Position numbers and translations under genes: made by a program. The notes below the pieces were generated by a model. The model worked only from the letters and a program-made list of their open reading frames with translations. It searched no databases and was not told the origin of the DNA. A stretch of 33,600 nucleotides of DNA from a candidate division CSSED10-310 bacterium (GTDB taxonomy: Bacteria; CSSED10-310). Each line of letters begins with the position of its first letter. Positions within the stretch are counted from its first letter, which is position 1. Where the stretch lies: NCBI GenBank assembly GCA_016927515.1, contig JAFGMN010000148.1, positions 1 to 33,600 on the forward strand, written 5' to 3'. Of this stretch, positions 5,223-14,177 are shown piece after piece.

Positions 5223-6339
5223 GTTTTTTCCTGTCAGCGATAAAAATCCGGCCATCAGAGCCGACTGCGATGGCATGGGCTTCTCGAATAATGCCCCGGC
5301 CGGGATCTAGATGGATATGCCGGAGTCGAACGCCCTGGGGTGAAAAAATGGTTACGGTATGATCACTGCACAACACATACAGGTGTCCAAACCAGTCGGT
5401 GGCGAGATCAATGGGATCATCCAGTGCGTAACCTGGACCTTGAAACGGGATCGTAACAGGCAGTCCGGAGCCCATGAACAGGATCTGACGGCTTTCGGGT
5501 TTCATGAGCCAGTTTCCGCCGATATGTCCAGCCAGCAAGCGTTCGTTACCGTTAAGGGGAGGGATCTGCAAGGTATCGATGCGCGTGCCGTCGGCAGTAA
5601 ATTGGAGCATCTGAGCATGTCGGCGATCGAGGACCAGCCACGTGCTATGGGCGGTAAACACTGCGTCGATTATGCGGGTCAATTCATCTTGGTTCCCGAA
5701 ATGGTTCAACCGGTTCTGTTTCCAAAATCCGTATTGGGTGACCACAACCGGTTCACCGTCGACCAATTGTAGAGAACGCGAATCATCTGGAAGTGCCGAT
5801 GTGGGAGGTACGGGTCGATGGACACCGTCTGGGTTTTCCACCAATTGGATTAAGCGGTACCGATCCATGACGATGAGGCGATTGTCCGCTGTGATCTGAA
5901 TATCGACCGGGCTCTCCAGATCGATTCCCGTCAGGTGAAAGCGTGGATCGTGGTTGTAGGCGGTGTCCGGGAGATAAATCCGGTGCAGAAGGTGCAATCG
6001 CGCATCGATTCGAGCGCGTTGATCCGGAGAGGATTGGGTGAATTCCCGCAGTTGTTCGAGCCATTCCATGGCCATGGGTGCTTTATGAAGATAGATGCAG
6101 ATGCGACCCAATGTTTCCAGCACGGTTGTTGAATCGGAGCATGTTTGACAGTCCCAGATATTCCGCAATAACACCGATTCGGCGCGGGTCCAATCCTGTT
6201 GAGAAGTCAGTTGGGTCATTGTCATGGCTGGTGTTGGTGAAGGTGTTGGTTGGGATGATTGGGCGGAGACTGAGATAAGTAAAGCGACGGCTGGTATCAA
6301 TCCGATGACACGCATATGAAGTTTCCAAAAGGGAATCAT
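5200..6339 (-). CDS. Secreted NHL-type beta-propeller protein
   Basis: Function unknown. The roughly 379-residue product has an N-terminal signal peptide, a short Pro/Thr/Ser-rich linker (SSQPTPSPTPA), a helical region resembling a repeat scaffold (about 40-130), and a C-terminal half made of repeated strands typical of NHL or six-bladed propellers. Blade-like repeats include PVDIQITADNRLIVMDRYR, PIDLATDWFGHLYVLCSD and AIAVGSDGRIFIADRKKHA. Such propellers usually bind proteins or ligands and act as scaffolds. The ATG at 6339 is preferred; a second ATG at 6315, also with a GGA site, begins the hydrophobic signal core directly and is possible. The upstream PEGA gene stops at 6347 and the next gene overlaps by 23 bases, so the three form one operon. 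Confidence 0.7.
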   Translation of the reverse strand: MIPFWKLHMRVIGLIPAVALLISVSAQSSQPTPSPTPAMTMTQLTSQQDWTRAESVLLRNIWDCQTCSDSTTVLETLGRICIYLHKAPMAMEWLEQLREFTQSSPDQRARIDARLHLLHRIYLPDTAYNHDPRFHLTGIDLESPVDIQITADNRLIVMDRYRLIQLVENPDGVHRPVPPTSALPDDSRSLQLVDGEPVVVTQYGFWKQNRLNHFGNQDELTRIIDAVFTAHSTWLVLDRRHAQMLQFTADGTRIDTLQIPPLNGNERLLAGHIGGNWLMKPESRQILFMGSGLPVTIPFQGPGYALDDPIDLATDWFGHLYVLCSDHTVTIFSPQGVRLRHIHLDPGRGIIREAHAIAVGSDGRIFIADRKKHAIVCFR

Positions 6340-6346
6340 GGTCAAC

Positions 6347-7432
6347 CTATCTGCATCCGAAAACTCGGGGTAGCCGCCGTGTCTGGCCTGGAAGTATTTT
6401 CACCCATTGACTCTGCGTATCGTCACAACTCGACCATGTCAACTCGATATTGTAGAGACCGGGAGCGACGGAGAAGGTACCGGGAGTTTTCCCGAGGCGA
6501 TGTGATCCGGCCGTTACGTCAGCTCCGGATGGTTCTGATTCAACGATCAGTGTGCCCGGTTCATCCACTGTGATGGTAGAGGTCTGGTTATCACGAATCG
6601 TGATTGTATCGGTTTGATCTAGCAGATACTCGGTGTTGACGGTCCGAATTGTGTGGCGGCCTGGTTTGAGATGTGTAGAGAACGATTTCTTTCCGGTGGA
6701 TAACTGCTTTGAACCTGATAAAACAGTGACAGGATAAGGGCTTTTTACAAGAAGTTTCCCCTGGGGTTCGCGAGGCTTAGGTTGTTCTTTCAAAACGAGA
6801 ACCACAGGTTCGCCAGGACCCAGATCGGGCACAGTACAGGTTGTGTCCACGGAATCGAAGCCCTCTTTATGGACCGTAATCCGAACGGAACCGCCTGCAG
6901 GAAGCTCAAACGTCATCGGGGTTCGTTTTCCAGTATCCATCCCATCAATCGCGATGGATGCTCCAGAAGGCTTCGACCGGATTTCTATCGGAACGAACTC
7001 CGGCTTCATAATGGCATCAATAGTGATGGATTCTTCCGCGATGGTCACAGCTTCCGGGGACGGATTCACTGTTACCACCGGGATTTCTCCAGAGGATTCT
7101 GGTACATGAATAACGATTTTTATTGCCTGATAGGCAGGATGCGTTATTTCGAACACATGATCTGAGGGTCGAGACCATTCGATCGTTCGCGTGACGGGAT
7201 GTTGGGTGGATTGATAATCCATCAGCAAGATGGCATCTGCCGGTTGAATCCGGATATCCAGCGCTCCCTGATATGAATCATCAATCAATCCTGTCAGGCG
7301 CATAATTCCATCAGCTCCAAGGAAAAACGCCCCAAAACCACCCATAACCAAAATGACCACGCCGAAGATCACCATCATGCGCCATCGGTCCCAGAACGAG
7401 TTGTCCTGCCAGTCATTGTCCAGATGATTCAT
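6347..7432 (-). CDS. Membrane-anchored PEGA-domain protein
   Basis: No named family is recognised beyond PEGA. The 361-residue protein has one transmembrane segment at about 20-38 following a short charged N-terminus, consistent with an inner-membrane anchor and a periplasmic remainder. PEGA-type beta domains lie at about 147-215 (IRSKPSGASIAIDGMDTGKR, then HKEGF) and 293-355 (VESEPSGADV with LGKTP), with a diverged one at about 225-290 and another diverged strand-rich region at about 57-145. It is the first gene of a three-gene minus-strand operon with a secreted propeller protein and a second PEGA protein. The start is an ATG with GGAG ten bases upstream, slightly far. PEGA proteins are commonly envelope or surface components; a specific role cannot be read from the sequence. 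Confidence 0.75.
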   Translation of the reverse strand: MNHLDNDWQDNSFWDRWRMMVIFGVVILVMGGFGAFFLGADGIMRLTGLIDDSYQGALDIRIQPADAILLMDYQSTQHPVTRTIEWSRPSDHVFEITHPAYQAIKIVIHVPESSGEIPVVTVNPSPEAVTIAEESITIDAIMKPEFVPIEIRSKPSGASIAIDGMDTGKRTPMTFELPAGGSVRITVHKEGFDSVDTTCTVPDLGPGEPVVLVLKEQPKPREPQGKLLVKSPYPVTVLSGSKQLSTGKKSFSTHLKPGRHTIRTVNTEYLLDQTDTITIRDNQTSTITVDEPGTLIVESEPSGADVTAGSHRLGKTPGTFSVAPGLYNIELTWSSCDDTQSQWVKILPGQTRRLPRVFGCR

Positions 7433-7667: not shown

Positions 7668-9140
7668 GTGGAGCAGGTTTTGCGTATTGTTTTCATCGCT
7701 TCGGAATGTGTTCCGTTTGCCAAAACCGGGGGACTTGCGGATGTGGTCGGAGCTCTACCCCGCGTGCTGCGCGATCGCGGTCACGAAGTGATTGTGATTA
7801 TACCAAAATATGCTGAGATTCAATGGGGCTCATATGTGCCGGAACGTCTGCTGCATTCGATGGGAGTGTGGATGGGAAACGGTCAGGAATGGTGCGCTGT
7901 AGACGGCACTCACGTTGATGGTACGCCTATCTATTTTATTGAATTCGATCGATTTTTCCAGCGACCAGGTCTCTATCACGATTCCCGCTTCAATGACTAT
8001 TCAGATAATGCGCTCCGGTTTGGGCTGTTTACGCGAGCAGCTCTGCAGCTCATCATCGATCTACGTTTCCAGGCGGATATCGTTCACGTTCATGATTGGC
8101 AAACCGCCTTGGCACCTGCATATCTAAAAATATGGCACTGGAATCACGATATCCTGGGCCGGTGTGCTTCGGTTCTGACTATTCACAATATCGCGTATCA
8201 GGGAGTGTATCCGGCAGATTGCTACGAGTATTTGGGACTACAATGGTCCAATTTTTCATCCAACCGGTTTGAAGACCACGGGCGTGTCAATTTTCTGAAA
8301 GGCGGTATTCAGTTCAGCGACATGATCACAACGGTGAGTCCCAAGTATGCCCGTGAAACGCGATCCCCGGAATTCGCTCACGGAATGGCGCCCTATCTCA
8401 ATGATCGGGGTGACGCCTACGTGGGGATTTTAAACGGTGTCGATTATTCTACATGGAATCCGGAGATCGATCCGCTGATACCTGCGGTATATTCATCGGA
8501 CTCGATGAATGGGAAGCGAGTATGCAAGGAGGTTTTGCAGCGTCGGATGGGATTGGAAGAAGCGCCGGATGTTCCACTATTCGGCGTTGTCAGCCGGTTT
8601 GCGGAGCAGAAGGGATTGCATCTTTTGGGTGAAGCGCTTCCGCTCATGTTGGAAAAAATGCAGATGCAGTGCATCGTTCTGGGTTCCGGAGATCCGCGGC
8701 TTGAGCGCGTGTTTGCCGATATGCCGGCACGGTTTCCCGGGCGATGCGGTGTTTACATCGGCTACCATGATGAGTTGGCTCACTGGATCGAAGCGGGGTG
8801 TGACGGATTCATCATGCCGTCCATCTATGAACCATGTGGTTTAAATCAGATCTATTCGCTACGATATGGTACATTGCCAGTGGTCCGGGCGACGGGAGGG
8901 CTGGACGATACCGTCGAGCAATACGATGAATCCAGTGGTCGTGGAACCGGTTTCAAATTTACCGCTCCTCTCGCATCAGCGGTTTTCGATACCGTTGGGT
9001 GGGCAGTCAGCACATATTATGATCGGCCGCATCATTTTCAGTCCATGCAGAGGGCTGCCATGAGCCGGAGATTTTCGTGGGATGACAGCGTGACTCATTA
9101 TCTTGAAATTTATCGGGAAGCCCGGCGGCGGAAACCGTGA
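7668..9140 (+). CDS. glgA: Glycogen synthase (ADP-glucose type, GT5)
   Basis: GlgA transfers glucose from ADP-glucose to the non-reducing end of alpha-1,4-glucan in the cytoplasm. The 490-residue protein has the usual bacterial length and two Rossmann halves. The N-terminal KTGGLADVVGALP (K19) is the ADP-glucose-binding loop. HVHDWQTALAP and the SRFAEQKG block are typical of GT5. The C-terminal PSIYEPCGLNQIYSLRYGT, followed by RATGGLDDTV, carries the conserved glutamate and the second GGL. The start is a GTG at 7668 with an excellent GGAAGGAG six bases upstream. Two GlgC-type genes lie 2 kb downstream on the same strand, separated by a radical SAM gene and a GT2 gene. A promoter-like site just after glgA suggests those genes can be transcribed separately. 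Confidence 0.95.
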   Translation: MEQVLRIVFIASECVPFAKTGGLADVVGALPRVLRDRGHEVIVIIPKYAEIQWGSYVPERLLHSMGVWMGNGQEWCAVDGTHVDGTPIYFIEFDRFFQRPGLYHDSRFNDYSDNALRFGLFTRAALQLIIDLRFQADIVHVHDWQTALAPAYLKIWHWNHDILGRCASVLTIHNIAYQGVYPADCYEYLGLQWSNFSSNRFEDHGRVNFLKGGIQFSDMITTVSPKYARETRSPEFAHGMAPYLNDRGDAYVGILNGVDYSTWNPEIDPLIPAVYSSDSMNGKRVCKEVLQRRMGLEEAPDVPLFGVVSRFAEQKGLHLLGEALPLMLEKMQMQCIVLGSGDPRLERVFADMPARFPGRCGVYIGYHDELAHWIEAGCDGFIMPSIYEPCGLNQIYSLRYGTLPVVRATGGLDDTVEQYDESSGRGTGFKFTAPLASAVFDTVGWAVSTYYDRPHHFQSMQRAAMSRRFSWDDSVTHYLEIYREARRRKP

Positions 9141-9279: not shown

Positions 9280-10392
9280 ATGAGTGTTCCAAGTTACCTC
9301 ACATTTGGTGCGCGGATTTTCCGAAAAACCGGAGTATTACCTCATTACCTGGTTTTTTTCGTGACGAAGAACTGTACGGCCAACTGTCGGCATTGTTTAC
9401 TGGGTGGGGGAGCCCATTCGGAAAACGAACTGACGGTGGAGGAAATTGAGCATTCGACACGCCACATGGATCCATTGTTATTTTTACTGATTACGGGAGG
9501 GGATCCCTTCATTCGGACGGATATTAGCGAGATAGTAAAAGCGTTTTACCGGCGACCGGGTTTCCGGAATCTCGGGATGCCGTCGAATGGATATCTGACG
9601 GATCGGATTGTGGGGGAAGCAGAGAGGATTTTGGTCGATTGTCCGGGAATTGATTTTGCCATCGATATTTCGATTGATGGGATTGGCGCTGATCATGATG
9701 ATATTCGGCAACGACCAGGCCTGTTCGACAGAGCGGTGGAAACATATCGTCGGTTGCAGGCACTGACGCGTAAATACGCTAACTTTAACTTGAATGTCGC
9801 CGTGACCGTTTCGAGTTTCAATCATGACAAGCTTGATGCGTTGTATGATTTCCTGAAGACCGAACTGGGTGTCGTCAACATCAATCATTTATTATGTCGT
9901 GGCAATCCGACTGATCCTCTGGCTCTGGATGTTGACATGGAAAAGTACCGGGCGTTTTCAGAAAGGCTGGACCAAGATTTACGGCAACATGCGCTTCTTG
10001 GTTATCACGGCTACCCGTTTGCGGATCTCGTGAATGCCATGAAGATTGTGCGGCAGAAGCTGATTCAGAAAACCCGCGTCGAAGATCGCTATCTGACGCC
10101 ATGTTACGCCGGTCGGCTGGGGGTCATTTTGTATCCGGACGGAGATATCGCTCCATGTGAACTTCGTAGTGAAGTCATGGGGAACCTGCGGGCGAACGGA
10201 TATCATTTCCGTGAGATTTTGGAATCGGAAACGGCGCACCGGATTCGCCGGATGATTGCTGATCAGCGGTGTCATTGTACGTATGAGTGTTTTCTTACCA
10301 ATGCTGTGATGTTCAATCCGAAATGGTTGTTTCGCGTATTGGTGGAATCCGCCCGGATCAAACTCAATCGAAGGCTTTCCGGAGGCAACTAG
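9280..10392 (+). CDS. Radical SAM protein with SPASM-like C-terminal cysteines
   Basis: The 370-residue protein has the radical SAM signature CX3CX2C (C32, C36, C39), which binds the 4Fe-4S cluster that cleaves S-adenosylmethionine, and the downstream GGDP motif (73-76). The C-terminus has a SPASM-like cysteine set: C275, C293 after a PDGDIAPCE segment, a GN pair at 301-302, and C331, C333 and C337. These would hold one or two auxiliary clusters, as in peptide-modifying maturases and some carbohydrate or cofactor enzymes. No small precursor peptide gene is evident nearby. The ATG has no ideally spaced ribosome site: GAGG is about 11 bases upstream. No other in-frame start is close. The GT2 gene follows with no gap. 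The substrate is unknown; the setting in a glycogen and glycosyltransferase cluster suggests, without proving, a role in sugar or lipid-linked metabolism. Confidence 0.85.
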   Translation: MSVPSYLTFGARIFRKTGVLPHYLVFFVTKNCTANCRHCLLGGGAHSENELTVEEIEHSTRHMDPLLFLLITGGDPFIRTDISEIVKAFYRRPGFRNLGMPSNGYLTDRIVGEAERILVDCPGIDFAIDISIDGIGADHDDIRQRPGLFDRAVETYRRLQALTRKYANFNLNVAVTVSSFNHDKLDALYDFLKTELGVVNINHLLCRGNPTDPLALDVDMEKYRAFSERLDQDLRQHALLGYHGYPFADLVNAMKIVRQKLIQKTRVEDRYLTPCYAGRLGVILYPDGDIAPCELRSEVMGNLRANGYHFREILESETAHRIRRMIADQRCHCTYECFLTNAVMFNPKWLFRVLVESARIKLNRRLSGGN

Positions 10393-11076
10393 ATGCGCGG
10401 TAACAAGAAAATTTCGGTCGTGATTCCCTGTTACAATGAAGAGGGTGGGATCGCACGGGTCATTCCGGCGTTGCCAGAATTCATCGATGAAATCATCGTG
10501 GTTGATAACAATTCATCCGATCGGACTGCGGAAGTCGCTCGGAATTTGGGTGCACGGGTGATTCTCGAACGGAAACAGGGATATGGTTGTGCCTACAAAG
10601 CAGGGTTACCAGCGGCCGAAGGTGACATCATCGTCACGATGGATGGTGATGGCACGTATCCGGCCCATGCCATTTCCTATCTGTTGGACACGCTATTGTT
10701 TGATAATCTGGATTTTGTTTCCGCGGCCCGTATCCCGGTTCAATGGATTCATTCGAGCAATATGATTAAGCGATACGTCGGAAACGTCGTACTGAGCATC
10801 GTTACGTGCATTTTGTTTGGCATCCATCTGCGGGACAGCCAGAGTGGGATGTGGGTATTCAGGCGCCCTGTTCTGGAAAAAATTCAGGTAATCAGCGATG
10901 GCATGCCGTTTTCCGAGGAGTTCAAAATTCGAGCATTTAAGCATCCCGAAATTGCGGCCCGGGAAGTGCCGGTACAGTTCAAATACATAACCCGAGTTGG
11001 TGAATCCAAACTGAACCTATGGGGTGACGGGTTTCGCAATCTGAAATACTTGTTTTCATTGCGGCGGGAAGTGTGA
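10393..11076 (+). CDS. GT2 glycosyltransferase, polyprenyl-phosphate sugar synthase-like
   Basis: This 227-residue family 2 glycosyltransferase begins with the classic VVIPCYNEEGGI fold start and has VVDNNSSDRTAEVA and the DGDGTYP metal- and nucleotide-binding motif. The overall pattern, with GYGCAYKAG before DGDGT and no transmembrane helices, resembles dolichyl or polyprenyl-phosphate mannose/glucose synthases, which load a sugar from a nucleotide donor onto a lipid phosphate at the inner membrane face. The start codon follows the stop of the radical SAM gene directly, with GGAGG seven bases upstream, so the two are very likely coupled. A large GT-C-like membrane protein further down the same strand could use the product as donor. 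Donor and acceptor specificity cannot be read from the sequence. Confidence 0.85.
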   Translation: MRGNKKISVVIPCYNEEGGIARVIPALPEFIDEIIVVDNNSSDRTAEVARNLGARVILERKQGYGCAYKAGLPAAEGDIIVTMDGDGTYPAHAISYLLDTLLFDNLDFVSAARIPVQWIHSSNMIKRYVGNVVLSIVTCILFGIHLRDSQSGMWVFRRPVLEKIQVISDGMPFSEEFKIRAFKHPEIAAREVPVQFKYITRVGESKLNLWGDGFRNLKYLFSLRREV

Positions 11077-11100
11077 TCGATTGCGTAAATGAGGTGATGC

Positions 11101-12402
11101 ATGTCGACGAGTTATCTGCTGCCACGCGATACGTTGGGATTGATTCTAGCCGGGGGGCGGGTTAATGAACTTGCGGCTCTGACTCTTCATCGACCCAAAT
11201 CAGCCATGCCATTTGGTGGCATGTATCGGGTTATCGATTGTGCCTTAACCAATCTGGCTCATGCAGGTATCGACCGGATTGGCATCTTGTCTCAATACCG
11301 ACCGTCCTCCTTGATGGATCACGTCCGGGACGGTAAATATTGGGATTTTCAAGGGTTTCAACGGGGTGTGTCCTTCCTTCCACCCCACACGGGAGATTCC
11401 GATTCGGACTGGTATAAGGGGACTGCCGATGCATTATACCAGAACATAGCCTTTCTTCAGCATTATCGAAAACCGTTGACTCTCGTTGTATCAGGCGATC
11501 ATATGTATCGGATGGACTATCGAGCGCTTTTTGATGTGCATATTCGAACGGGGGTCCATATGACCATGGCCGTGACGCGTGTTCCGATGGCACGTGCATC
11601 CCGGTTTGGTTTGGCGGATGTCGCCGGTGACGGTCGTGTACGGGCGTATCGCGAGAAGCCGGTTTTACCTTTCTCGGACCTGGCATCCATGACTGTATAC
11701 CTTTTTAATACGGATGTTCTGCTGGAAGAATTGCGGCAGAATGCACGGACCGGAGTGACCTTCCAGATTTATGACGAGATACTGCCCCGAATGGTGGACC
11801 GAGGGGTTGTATCGGCCTGTATTTACGAAGGTTACTGGGCTTATAGTAGAACACTCGAAGACTATTACCAGGCAAACATGGATTGTCTAGGCGATCAGCC
11901 GCCGGTGGATCTTTCGCAATGGAAGCTCAGCACAAACATGGATGCGGGGCGTATCGGCGATCCCTGTCCGATTCTGATTGGTCCCGACGCTTGCATCACT
12001 GAATCCATTGTATCACCGGGGTGCAGGATCAATGGTGTCGTTCACCGGTCGGTTCTTTCGCCTGATTGTGTGATTGAGACCGGTGCCCGGATTGATCATT
12101 CCGTCGTCATGGAAGGATCGCGGGTTGGTTCGGGATCCAGTGTTCACCGGGCGATTATTGATAAACATGTTCGAGTGGGTTGCGGAACCGATATCGGATG
12201 TGCTGCAAATAGTGCAAGTTCCGCTGAACCCAATCGGGAAATACCCGATTTGCTGTCATGTGGCTTGTCCGTCATCGGCAAACGCGTGACGATTCCAGGA
12301 GGGATAACGATCGGCACAAATGTGATTATTTATCCGGATGTCGATTCCACATCTCTGGCTTTCCCTGGGCTTCCTGATGGATCGACGGTTTTTCCAGTGT
12401 AG
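11101..12402 (+). CDS. GlgC homologue with degenerate catalytic motif, probable regulatory subunit of ADP-glucose pyrophosphorylase
   Basis: The 433-residue protein aligns along its full length with ADP-glucose pyrophosphorylase: N-terminal nucleotidyltransferase fold, SGDHMYRMDY (D133), REKP (K186) and a C-terminal left-handed beta-helix with hexapeptide repeats. However, the phosphate-binding loop, GGxGxRL in active enzymes, reads GGRVNEL (18-24), losing both the glycine and the essential arginine. RAKPAV has become RPKSAM, and the YWRDVGT segment is YWAYSRT (245-251). The pattern recalls GlgD of Bacillus and the non-catalytic subunits of plant enzymes, which modulate a catalytic partner. 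The partner is the next gene, 9 bases downstream. Start is an ATG with GAGG six bases upstream. Weak residual or altered catalysis cannot be excluded. Confidence 0.85.
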   Translation: MSTSYLLPRDTLGLILAGGRVNELAALTLHRPKSAMPFGGMYRVIDCALTNLAHAGIDRIGILSQYRPSSLMDHVRDGKYWDFQGFQRGVSFLPPHTGDSDSDWYKGTADALYQNIAFLQHYRKPLTLVVSGDHMYRMDYRALFDVHIRTGVHMTMAVTRVPMARASRFGLADVAGDGRVRAYREKPVLPFSDLASMTVYLFNTDVLLEELRQNARTGVTFQIYDEILPRMVDRGVVSACIYEGYWAYSRTLEDYYQANMDCLGDQPPVDLSQWKLSTNMDAGRIGDPCPILIGPDACITESIVSPGCRINGVVHRSVLSPDCVIETGARIDHSVVMEGSRVGSGSSVHRAIIDKHVRVGCGTDIGCAANSASSAEPNREIPDLLSCGLSVIGKRVTIPGGITIGTNVIIYPDVDSTSLAFPGLPDGSTVFPV

Positions 12403-12411
12403 GAGGAGACG

Positions 12412-13707
12412 ATGATGAACTTGCCGCCGGTGTGCATGATTCTTGCCGGAGGTCAGGGGTCCCGGCTGAATGCATTAGCCTGGCATCGGGCGAAACCCGC
12501 CGTGCCGTTTGCCGGAATCCATCGACTGATCGATTTCACACTGTCCAATGCTGCGAACTCCGGATTGATGCGCGTTGGTATTCTGACACAGTATTTACCC
12601 TTGTCGCTGATGGACCATATCGGGACGGGAGCGTCCTGGGATCTGGCGGCACGGACTCGAGAATGCCGAATTTTACCTCCCACCGAAGGCGCATCCGCCA
12701 AAGACTGGTATCAGGGAACCGGTCATGCCATCGCAGTCAACAGCGATTTTATTTCTCGCGGAAGCGAGAAAGAAATTCTGATTCTGTCCGGCGATCATAT
12801 ATACTTCATGGATTATCGGAAGATGATCGCATTTCATCGACAGAAAAAAGCACATTTTACGATCGCAACGATGCCGGTCCCCATTGAGGACGCGCATCGT
12901 TTCGGGATCGCCGTTACCAACGCCGATCATCGGATCATTGATTTTCAGGAAAAACCGGATCAACCGCGTGGCACGCTCGGATCGATGGGTATCTACGTCG
13001 CCGATGCCAGTGTCATGCTGAAGCGCATGAATGACTTGATCGCTAACGGAAAAAACGACATCGGCGCTCATCTGGTGCCATCACTGATCCAGGACTGCCG
13101 CGTTTTTGCCTATCCATTCGATGGATACTGGCGGGATGTCGGCACTCTTGATGCCTATTGGGATTCATCCATGGATCTGATCGATCCCGACCGGAGCGGA
13201 CTGCAGATGAACGAATGGAACATGCGCACCAATCTCTACGCCTCCCAACTCCATGAACGTGCTCCTGCCGCATTCGGATCCTCCGCTCGAGTGTCCGCCT
13301 CCTTTATCTCTCAAGGCTGTAGAATCAATGGGCACGTGCATCGCTCCATCCTTTCCCCCGGAGTCGTTGTCGAAAACGATGCCGTCGTTATCGATTCCGT
13401 GTTGCTTGATGACGTGTCCGTTGGATCCGGCAGTCGCCTGCAACGCGTGATCGCTGACAAACATACTGGTATTGGCAGCTACGCTCATCTCATTGGTAAC
13501 CATCAATCACCCCCAAACAACCTGTATCCCAATCACCTGTCTTCCGGACTGATCATTCTTGGCAATCGATCCGTTGTGCCGAACCATACCCGGATTGAGG
13601 GAAACTGCCTTGTTTTTCCATCAGTGACGGCGCGTGACTGGATTACCCCGGAACTCGCTGCAGGATCCACTCTGAAAGGATCTTCCCATATCATCCAGGA
13701 GCTTTGA
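12412..13707 (+). CDS. glgC: Glucose-1-phosphate adenylyltransferase (ADP-glucose pyrophosphorylase), catalytic
   Basis: GlgC makes ADP-glucose from ATP and glucose-1-phosphate, the committed step to glycogen. The 431-residue protein keeps every expected catalytic motif: GGQGSRL (R18), RAKPAVPF (K28), LSGDHIYFMDY (D128), FQEKP (K181) and YWRDVGTLDAYW (239-250), followed by a beta-helix domain. Length is typical. The start is one of two adjacent ATGs (12412, 12415) behind AGGAGGAG, which also contains the stop codon of the preceding degenerate homologue, so the two are translationally linked and presumably form a hetero-oligomer. The next gene starts one base inside its stop (TGATG). GlgA, which uses the product, lies upstream on the same strand. 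Confidence 0.95.
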   Translation: MMNLPPVCMILAGGQGSRLNALAWHRAKPAVPFAGIHRLIDFTLSNAANSGLMRVGILTQYLPLSLMDHIGTGASWDLAARTRECRILPPTEGASAKDWYQGTGHAIAVNSDFISRGSEKEILILSGDHIYFMDYRKMIAFHRQKKAHFTIATMPVPIEDAHRFGIAVTNADHRIIDFQEKPDQPRGTLGSMGIYVADASVMLKRMNDLIANGKNDIGAHLVPSLIQDCRVFAYPFDGYWRDVGTLDAYWDSSMDLIDPDRSGLQMNEWNMRTNLYASQLHERAPAAFGSSARVSASFISQGCRINGHVHRSILSPGVVVENDAVVIDSVLLDDVSVGSGSRLQRVIADKHTGIGSYAHLIGNHQSPPNNLYPNHLSSGLIILGNRSVVPNHTRIEGNCLVFPSVTARDWITPELAAGSTLKGSSHIIQEL

Positions 13708-14177
13708 TGGTGCGAGACAAGGATATCCGATCGTCCCGTAAAAAAACCGATGATTTGCAGTTGCCGAACGGTAAGTGGCCGTATCCGACACAACCGGGTC
13801 AGGCACCGTTTGCAGCGCTCGAGCGGCTCTTGGATATCGAGGCCGGGTCCGACGCGAGGGAAGTCGTTCGCGAAATCCGAGCACAAGCGACCCGAAAACT
13901 CGAATTGCTCGAAGTTATGTACCGAGATCTGATCAACCGGGCTCAGGTCATTGTCGAAAAGGCAAAGGAAGATTTGCATTTGCATTCGGTGAGGATGTAT
14001 TCGACCAAAATCAGGAACCGGGTATACTATCTTTATCGATACTCGGACGGGCTCGACGATGCCTTTTTTTCGATTCTGGAACCTGAAGAATATCTGCCGG
14101 CGGATCCCGATGCCCGGTTTGATGGTACCTATCACCTGAACGACGACGGTTCGTGGACACGTATCGACATCGCTTGA
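13707..14177 (+). CDS. DUF2452-like protein of unknown function
   Basis: A 156-residue, charged, soluble protein without signal peptide or membrane segment. Its YPTQPGQAPFAAL start, a central helix of the form REIRAQATRKLELLEVMYRD, and the late YYLYRYSDG...FSILEPEEY segment resemble my recollection of the DUF2452 family, whose members occur in several bacterial phyla and as human C1orf50; the biochemical role is not known to me. The ATG at 13707 overlaps the glgC stop by one base (TGATG) and has AGGAG five bases upstream, so it is co-translated with glgC. The family assignment is by pattern memory and should be treated as moderate. Confidence 0.7.
   Translation: MVRDKDIRSSRKKTDDLQLPNGKWPYPTQPGQAPFAALERLLDIEAGSDAREVVREIRAQATRKLELLEVMYRDLINRAQVIVEKAKEDLHLHSVRMYSTKIRNRVYYLYRYSDGLDDAFFSILEPEEYLPADPDARFDGTYHLNDDGSWTRIDIA

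Follow-up and report, generated by a model that had tools for sequence, protein, structure and literature searches.

On a contig of a candidate division CSSED10-310 bacterium (JAFGMN010000148.1, assembly GCA_016927515.1), two consecutive genes encode homologues of GlgC, the ADP-glucose pyrophosphorylase, and the first of these proteins (P1) differs from the second (P2) at several active-site motifs. Do the two genes encode a heteromeric ADP-glucose pyrophosphorylase with one catalytic and one modulatory subunit, and did this arrangement arise independently of the GlgC/GlgD pair of Firmicutes? Both possibilities had been raised in a reading of the window by its letters alone (hereafter the sequence-only reading), the window being the whole stretch of 33,600 nucleotides that was analysed. 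That reading was right on its main point and is corrected here in three respects, as the altered site is not simply destroyed, the arrangement is widespread, and the genome encodes another GlgC.

Identification of two full-length GlgC homologues

On the basis of ORFs, homology, and residues, P1 (positions 11101-12402, forward strand) was annotated as a GlgC paralogue with a remodelled active site and P2 (12412-13707, forward strand) as a GlgC with the full catalytic residue set; they are the proposed modulatory and catalytic subunits, respectively. Both proteins matched the Pfam model for NTP_transferase (PF00483; 137.5 bits for P1 and 178.2 bits for P2, cut-off 21.2) and models for a left-handed beta-helix (PF24894 on P2, 53.7 bits), and solved GlgC structures were matched by P1 at E = 2e-52 and by P2 at 1.6e-66. 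By these Pfam and solved-structure comparisons, P1 and P2 are full-length members of the GlgC fold, and P2 has the GlgC architecture of a GT-A nucleotidyltransferase domain and a C-terminal left-handed beta-helix. The NCBIfam equivalog cut-off for glgC (424.9) is missed by P2 (363.7 bits) and likewise by P1. An AlphaFold model of P1 built from 11 sequences was poor, with a mean pLDDT of 65.

The ORFs and motif differences from which the sequence-only reading started were found in place, with the residues that it described. Residues are numbered here as in E. coli GlgC. The G-loop of P1 reads GGRVNEL (11152-11172; canonical GGxGxRL), with Glu at the position of R32; RPKSAM (11191-11208; canonical RAKPAV) retains Lys42 and has lost Pro43; and YWAYSRT (11833-11853; canonical YWRDVGT) has Tyr for the Mg2+ ligand Asp276. 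The third and fourth motifs of P1, SGDH (11491-11502, where the position of the catalytic Asp142 is retained) and REKP, have SGDH and QEKP as their counterparts in P2, which carries GGQGSRL (12448-12468), RAKPAV (12487-12504), and YWRDVGT with Asp276 (13126-13146), all on the forward strand. The overlap of stop codon and ribosome site that had been described is also present (12400-12406, forward strand): the TAG that ends P1 shares bases with a Shine-Dalgarno-like AGGAGG (12401-12406) for P2, in the sequence TAGGAGGAGACGATG (12400-12414).

Distribution of the pair

A P1-type gene followed by a P2-type gene was found in the window's phylum, in candidate division KSB1, in Desulfobacterota, and in a fourth phylum, that of genome G019. 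Among the eight genomes of the window's phylum in the collection, the tandem occurs in the window's own genome (G000) and in G002, G005, and G006. Strong matches were obtained in 46 of the 82 genomes of KSB1 (the phylum of G052), with two same-strand neighbours in 39 of the 82, while the Desulfobacterota records with the pair include Desulfocapsa, Desulfobulbaceae, and others (L065-L071 and L073). About ten further genomes of the phylum of G019 have the same gene order, and their upstream genes carry a variant signature (GGxxxGY/F, often SxEH, and WxYL). A further record, L063 (JAACEJ010000484.1), is titled Actinomycetota, but its ORF lengths and scores equal those of G098 of the KSB1 phylum, and the title is probably wrong. 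The pair is an ancient duplication and a conserved unit over at least four phyla, not special to the window's lineage, and the recurrence of the same genes with the same residue pattern across phyla is far beyond chance.

Where the ORFs overlap, the commonest overlap is 4 bases (27 pairs). P1 and P2 might instead form separate homo-oligomers, with P1 a stand-alone sensor or scaffold, and in G019's own family the P1-type and P2-type genes do lie apart. Against this stand the tight tandem arrangement over several phyla, the known hetero-oligomer precedents within the GlgC fold, and a common tetramer-interface position (equivalent to A. tumefaciens D141), where all 40 downstream genes and all but one of the 41 upstream genes have Asp or Asn; we regard separate assemblies as unlikely.

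A neighbouring glycogen synthase gene (glgA) was found only in the window's family, and the neighbours of the pair vary elsewhere. In Desulfobacterota, a weakly DHH-family-like protein is encoded directly upstream on the same strand (L066:354-1379, L068:6623-7636, L070:1836-2855, and L071:6694-7857). In L069, the pair is flanked by genes for a glycosyltransferase resembling TreT (trehalose synthase) and for a protein of the alpha-amylase family (6059-7423 and 11041-12882), which suggests a trehalose or alpha-glucan route and would also fit a supply of NDP-glucose. Co-occurrence of GlgA with the pair in KSB1 showed no dependence and is uninformative for functional linkage, because GlgA is found in nearly all genomes there. 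GlgC-like proteins of about 35% identity were also seen in 23 phage-labelled records (e.g. MT836006.1), most of which are unannotated 'Bacteriophage sp.' entries from faeces and are perhaps mislabelled bacterial contigs.

Conservation of active-site residues

In GlgC, D142 and D276 chelate the Mg2+ ion and Arg32 has a critical role (PMC5474683); glucose-1-phosphate is bound by Glu194, Ser212, Tyr216, Asp239, Trp274, and Asp276 (PMC4890535). Among the residues of the site, P1 has V for G30, E for R32, S for P43, T for G214, and Y for D276, as well as Thr for D239, and keeps K42, D142, E194, K195, S212, Y216, and W274, so that the changes fall mostly on the nucleotide and Mg2+ side and much of the sugar-phosphate side is retained. 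In P2 and its orthologues, R32, K42, D142, E194, K195, S212, Y216, D239, W274, and D276 are all present. These residues bear out the earlier view of the pair as a putatively catalytic GlgC beside a catalytically crippled paralogue.

The same division holds across genomes when genes are chosen by gene order only (41 upstream and 40 downstream). Every one of the 41 upstream genes has Tyr in place of D276, and none keeps R32, where 38 have Glu or Asp; Val stands for G30 in 39 and Thr for G214 in 39; K42, D142, H143, E194, K195, and W274 are invariant. The downstream genes are catalytically intact, with every catalytic residue retained in 40 of 40. The upstream genes share a replacement set, GGRVDEL / RPKSA / SxT / YWGYTRT, and over six motif blocks their mean pairwise identity is 82%, compared with 53.5% elsewhere in the domain, a level of conservation that no set among 5000 random block sets reached. 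The same blocks in Firmicutes GlgD are not better kept than its domain (37% versus 41%). The dN/dS of P1 is 0.04-0.17, like that of P2, and indicates purifying selection.

The loop of P1 had been called destroyed. Catalytic residues are indeed lost, but a conserved motif has taken their place, and because purifying selection on the site is strong and the remainder of the domain is less conserved, the site is better described as remodelled; P1 would thus appear to carry a conserved pseudo-site. The loss of catalytic residues would also be expected of a functionless, decaying duplicate or pseudogene. Conservation across phyla, the dN/dS values, and the place of the altered site among the most conserved parts of the protein rule this explanation out, and we give it practically no weight.

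The replaced motifs could alternatively form a new active site, in which case P1 would be an independent enzyme whose chemistry or substrate has changed. Their high conservation and the retention of D142, K42, E194, and K195 in all 41 upstream genes speak for this reading. It would nevertheless have to work with one Mg2+-binding Asp lost in 41 of 41 genes and the catalytic Arg lost in all, with its charge reversed in 38, and D142 is itself replaced by Glu in seven of nine upstream genes of the fourth phylum. Several homologues require the Arg of the GXG[TS]R loop, activity falls about 100-500-fold in homologues in which it is changed, and in the potato large subunit replacing the loop Arg restored activity (PMC4643126). 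An independent catalytic role for P1 accordingly seems improbable to us.

Phylogeny and comparison with known systems

Maximum-likelihood trees were calculated under a mixture model with the six motif blocks removed. All P1-type and P2-type proteins formed a single clade (support 100/97 to 100/99), separate from Firmicutes GlgC, Firmicutes GlgD (100/100), and a tandem GlgC pair of Chloroflexota, so that the pair occupies a branch of its own in a phylogeny with GlgC, GlgD, and plant subunits, an outcome that the sequence-only reading had named as support for an independent origin. Comparison of the sequences in this way shows that P1 and P2 share an ancestor. Within the clade, a split close to the base separates upstream from downstream genes; of the downstream genes, two long ones (of G005 and G006) sit on the upstream side, and a clade of all upstream genes was not rejected (AU p 0.28).

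The closest known likeness is the GlgC/GlgD system of Firmicutes (TIGR02091/TIGR02092), in which a catalytic GlgC lies beside a paralogue without a working active site and GlgD modulates GlgC (PMC9093745). P1 shares with GlgD the loss of R32, G30, and D276 in a gene adjacent to glgC. It differs in that the inactive-type gene comes first, the protein is full length (433 aa, versus about 370 aa for GlgD), K42 and the EKP pocket are kept, and its altered site is conserved while that of GlgD is drifting; the two fall in separate clades in free trees. P1 might still be a member of the GlgD family, acquired or inherited, an ancestry that would be compatible with a heteromeric mechanism and would make the pair an instance of the known system. 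The G-loop and D276 are lost in both, and a tree constrained to unite P1 with GlgD cost 15-21 log-likelihood units and was not rejected (AU p 0.113, 0.177, and 0.164). On the other side, P1 scores 182.6 bits on the NCBIfam glgD equivalog model, below its cut-off of 236.6, joins P2 in the free trees with the support given above, and differs in gene order and in keeping the K42 that GlgD has lost. We hold a GlgD ancestry to have only a small chance of being correct. Since the AU test does not reject P1 with GlgD, the independent origin put forward earlier is favoured, not proven: the free trees place the pair apart from Firmicutes GlgC and GlgD, and the gene order and the K42 retained in P1 also argue for it.

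Plant AGPase likewise combines a catalytic with a modulatory paralogue in a hetero-oligomer, and its modulatory subunit retains most of the pocket. In the trees, the two plant subunits fall with GlgC of the cyanobacterial type and with the canonical GlgC encoded elsewhere in the window's genome (contig C290, see below), far from P1 and P2, and P1 lacks the grouping expected of a plant-type large subunit. The Chloroflexota pair (L075, L085, L086, and L092) also places a catalytic GlgC beside a paralogue with a broken G-loop, but there the catalytic gene comes first and the degenerate copy (GGDSPAL/RTEAAV or GGVSPGL/RSDAAL) is without K42. Its catalytic and degenerate members are sisters in the trees, it is apparently a separate duplication, and a direct relationship of P1 to the degenerate copy was rejected (AU p = 8e-5). 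In E. coli, GalU/GalF offers a same-superfamily paralogue that has very low activity and changes in its GXG[TS]R loop (PMC4643126); here the enzyme is one for UDP-glucose and lacks the beta-helix domain.

A recent paper assigns the inactive subunits of bacterial ADP-glucose pyrophosphorylases to Firmicutes and gives GlgD as absent from Actinobacteria and Proteobacteria (PMC9093745). Literature searches, with subscription papers beyond reach, found such pairs reported only from Firmicutes and plants, and no description of the Chloroflexota pair. In our reading so far, the pair is a real, conserved, and apparently undescribed variant of the known arrangement of catalytic and non-catalytic subunits.

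Proposed function of the pair

We consider it probable that P1 and P2 are the subunits of a heteromeric ADP-glucose pyrophosphorylase, P2 the catalytic and P1 the non-catalytic, modulatory one; that the two proteins assemble, that P1 modulates P2, and that ADP-glucose is the product are inferred. P2 would convert ATP and glucose-1-phosphate to ADP-glucose and PPi, supplying the nearby glycogen synthase. Because P1 has lost the Arg that contacts the triphosphate, the Gly of the G-loop, and one Asp of the pair that binds Mg2+, it should be unable to run the reaction itself. Its fold, lysines, and much of its sugar-phosphate pocket would persist as the conserved pseudo-site, through which P1 may tune the affinity, effector response, or specificity of P2.

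This proposal draws on the residue split between 41 upstream and 40 downstream genes together with nine upstream genes of the fourth phylum, the tandem genes, whose commonest overlap is of 4 bases, the purifying selection on P1, the conservation of its motif blocks, and the GlgA of the cluster, and the inactive GlgD that modulates GlgC in Firmicutes (PMC9093745) provides a precedent by analogy. Pointing the other way are the score of P2 below the glgC equivalog cut-off, the restriction of GlgA adjacency to the window's family, and the separated genes in G019's family. More tentatively, and as a reading somewhat less likely than not, we suggest that a heteromeric ADP-glucose pyrophosphorylase evolved here once more, independently of those of Firmicutes (GlgC/GlgD) and plants; its duplication would predate the spread of the pair over at least four phyla, and its non-catalytic subunit would bind a ligand of its own at the pseudo-active site (the replacement set above) as a dedicated sensor. 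The purpose of this site becomes testable because it is conserved. If confirmed, P1/P2 and the Chloroflexota pair would add two further lineages of such pairs, replicate experiments in the turning of an enzyme subunit into a regulator.

Genomic context

The same-strand cluster begins with glgA (7668-9140, forward strand), which encodes an ADP-glucose-type glycogen synthase (TIGR02095, 545.3 bits, cut-off 328.45). In the window's family, this adjacency lends indirect support to ADP-glucose as the likely product. Between glgA and the pair, also on the forward strand, lie genes for a radical SAM protein (9280-10392; PF04055) and a family 2 glycosyltransferase resembling dolichyl/polyprenyl-phosphate hexose synthases (10393-11076; PF00535, with NF041391 below cut-off). 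The same order of glgA, radical SAM, glycosyltransferase, and pair is found in G002, a genome of the window's family, with identities of 62%, 69%, and 81% for the first three proteins. The radical SAM protein and the glycosyltransferase (together 9280-11076) have no obvious role in glycogen synthesis.

Elsewhere in the genome, contig C290 encodes a third, canonical GlgC of plant/cyanobacterial type (L058:1912-3183, reverse strand; 432.3 bits, over the glgC equivalog cut-off), and contig C317 encodes a second GlgA, so the window pair is not the only ADP-glucose enzyme of this genome. A GH57 branching enzyme was sought in the genome and none was found, an absence that says little at 78% completeness, and a promoter and terminator scan of the cluster gave nothing above shuffled expectation. 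An ORF for a DUF2452 protein (13704-14177) begins within the 3' end of P2; no counterpart of at least 150 aa was seen at the same place in G002. The window also encodes a FadL-type outer-membrane protein, which fits a Gram-negative host.
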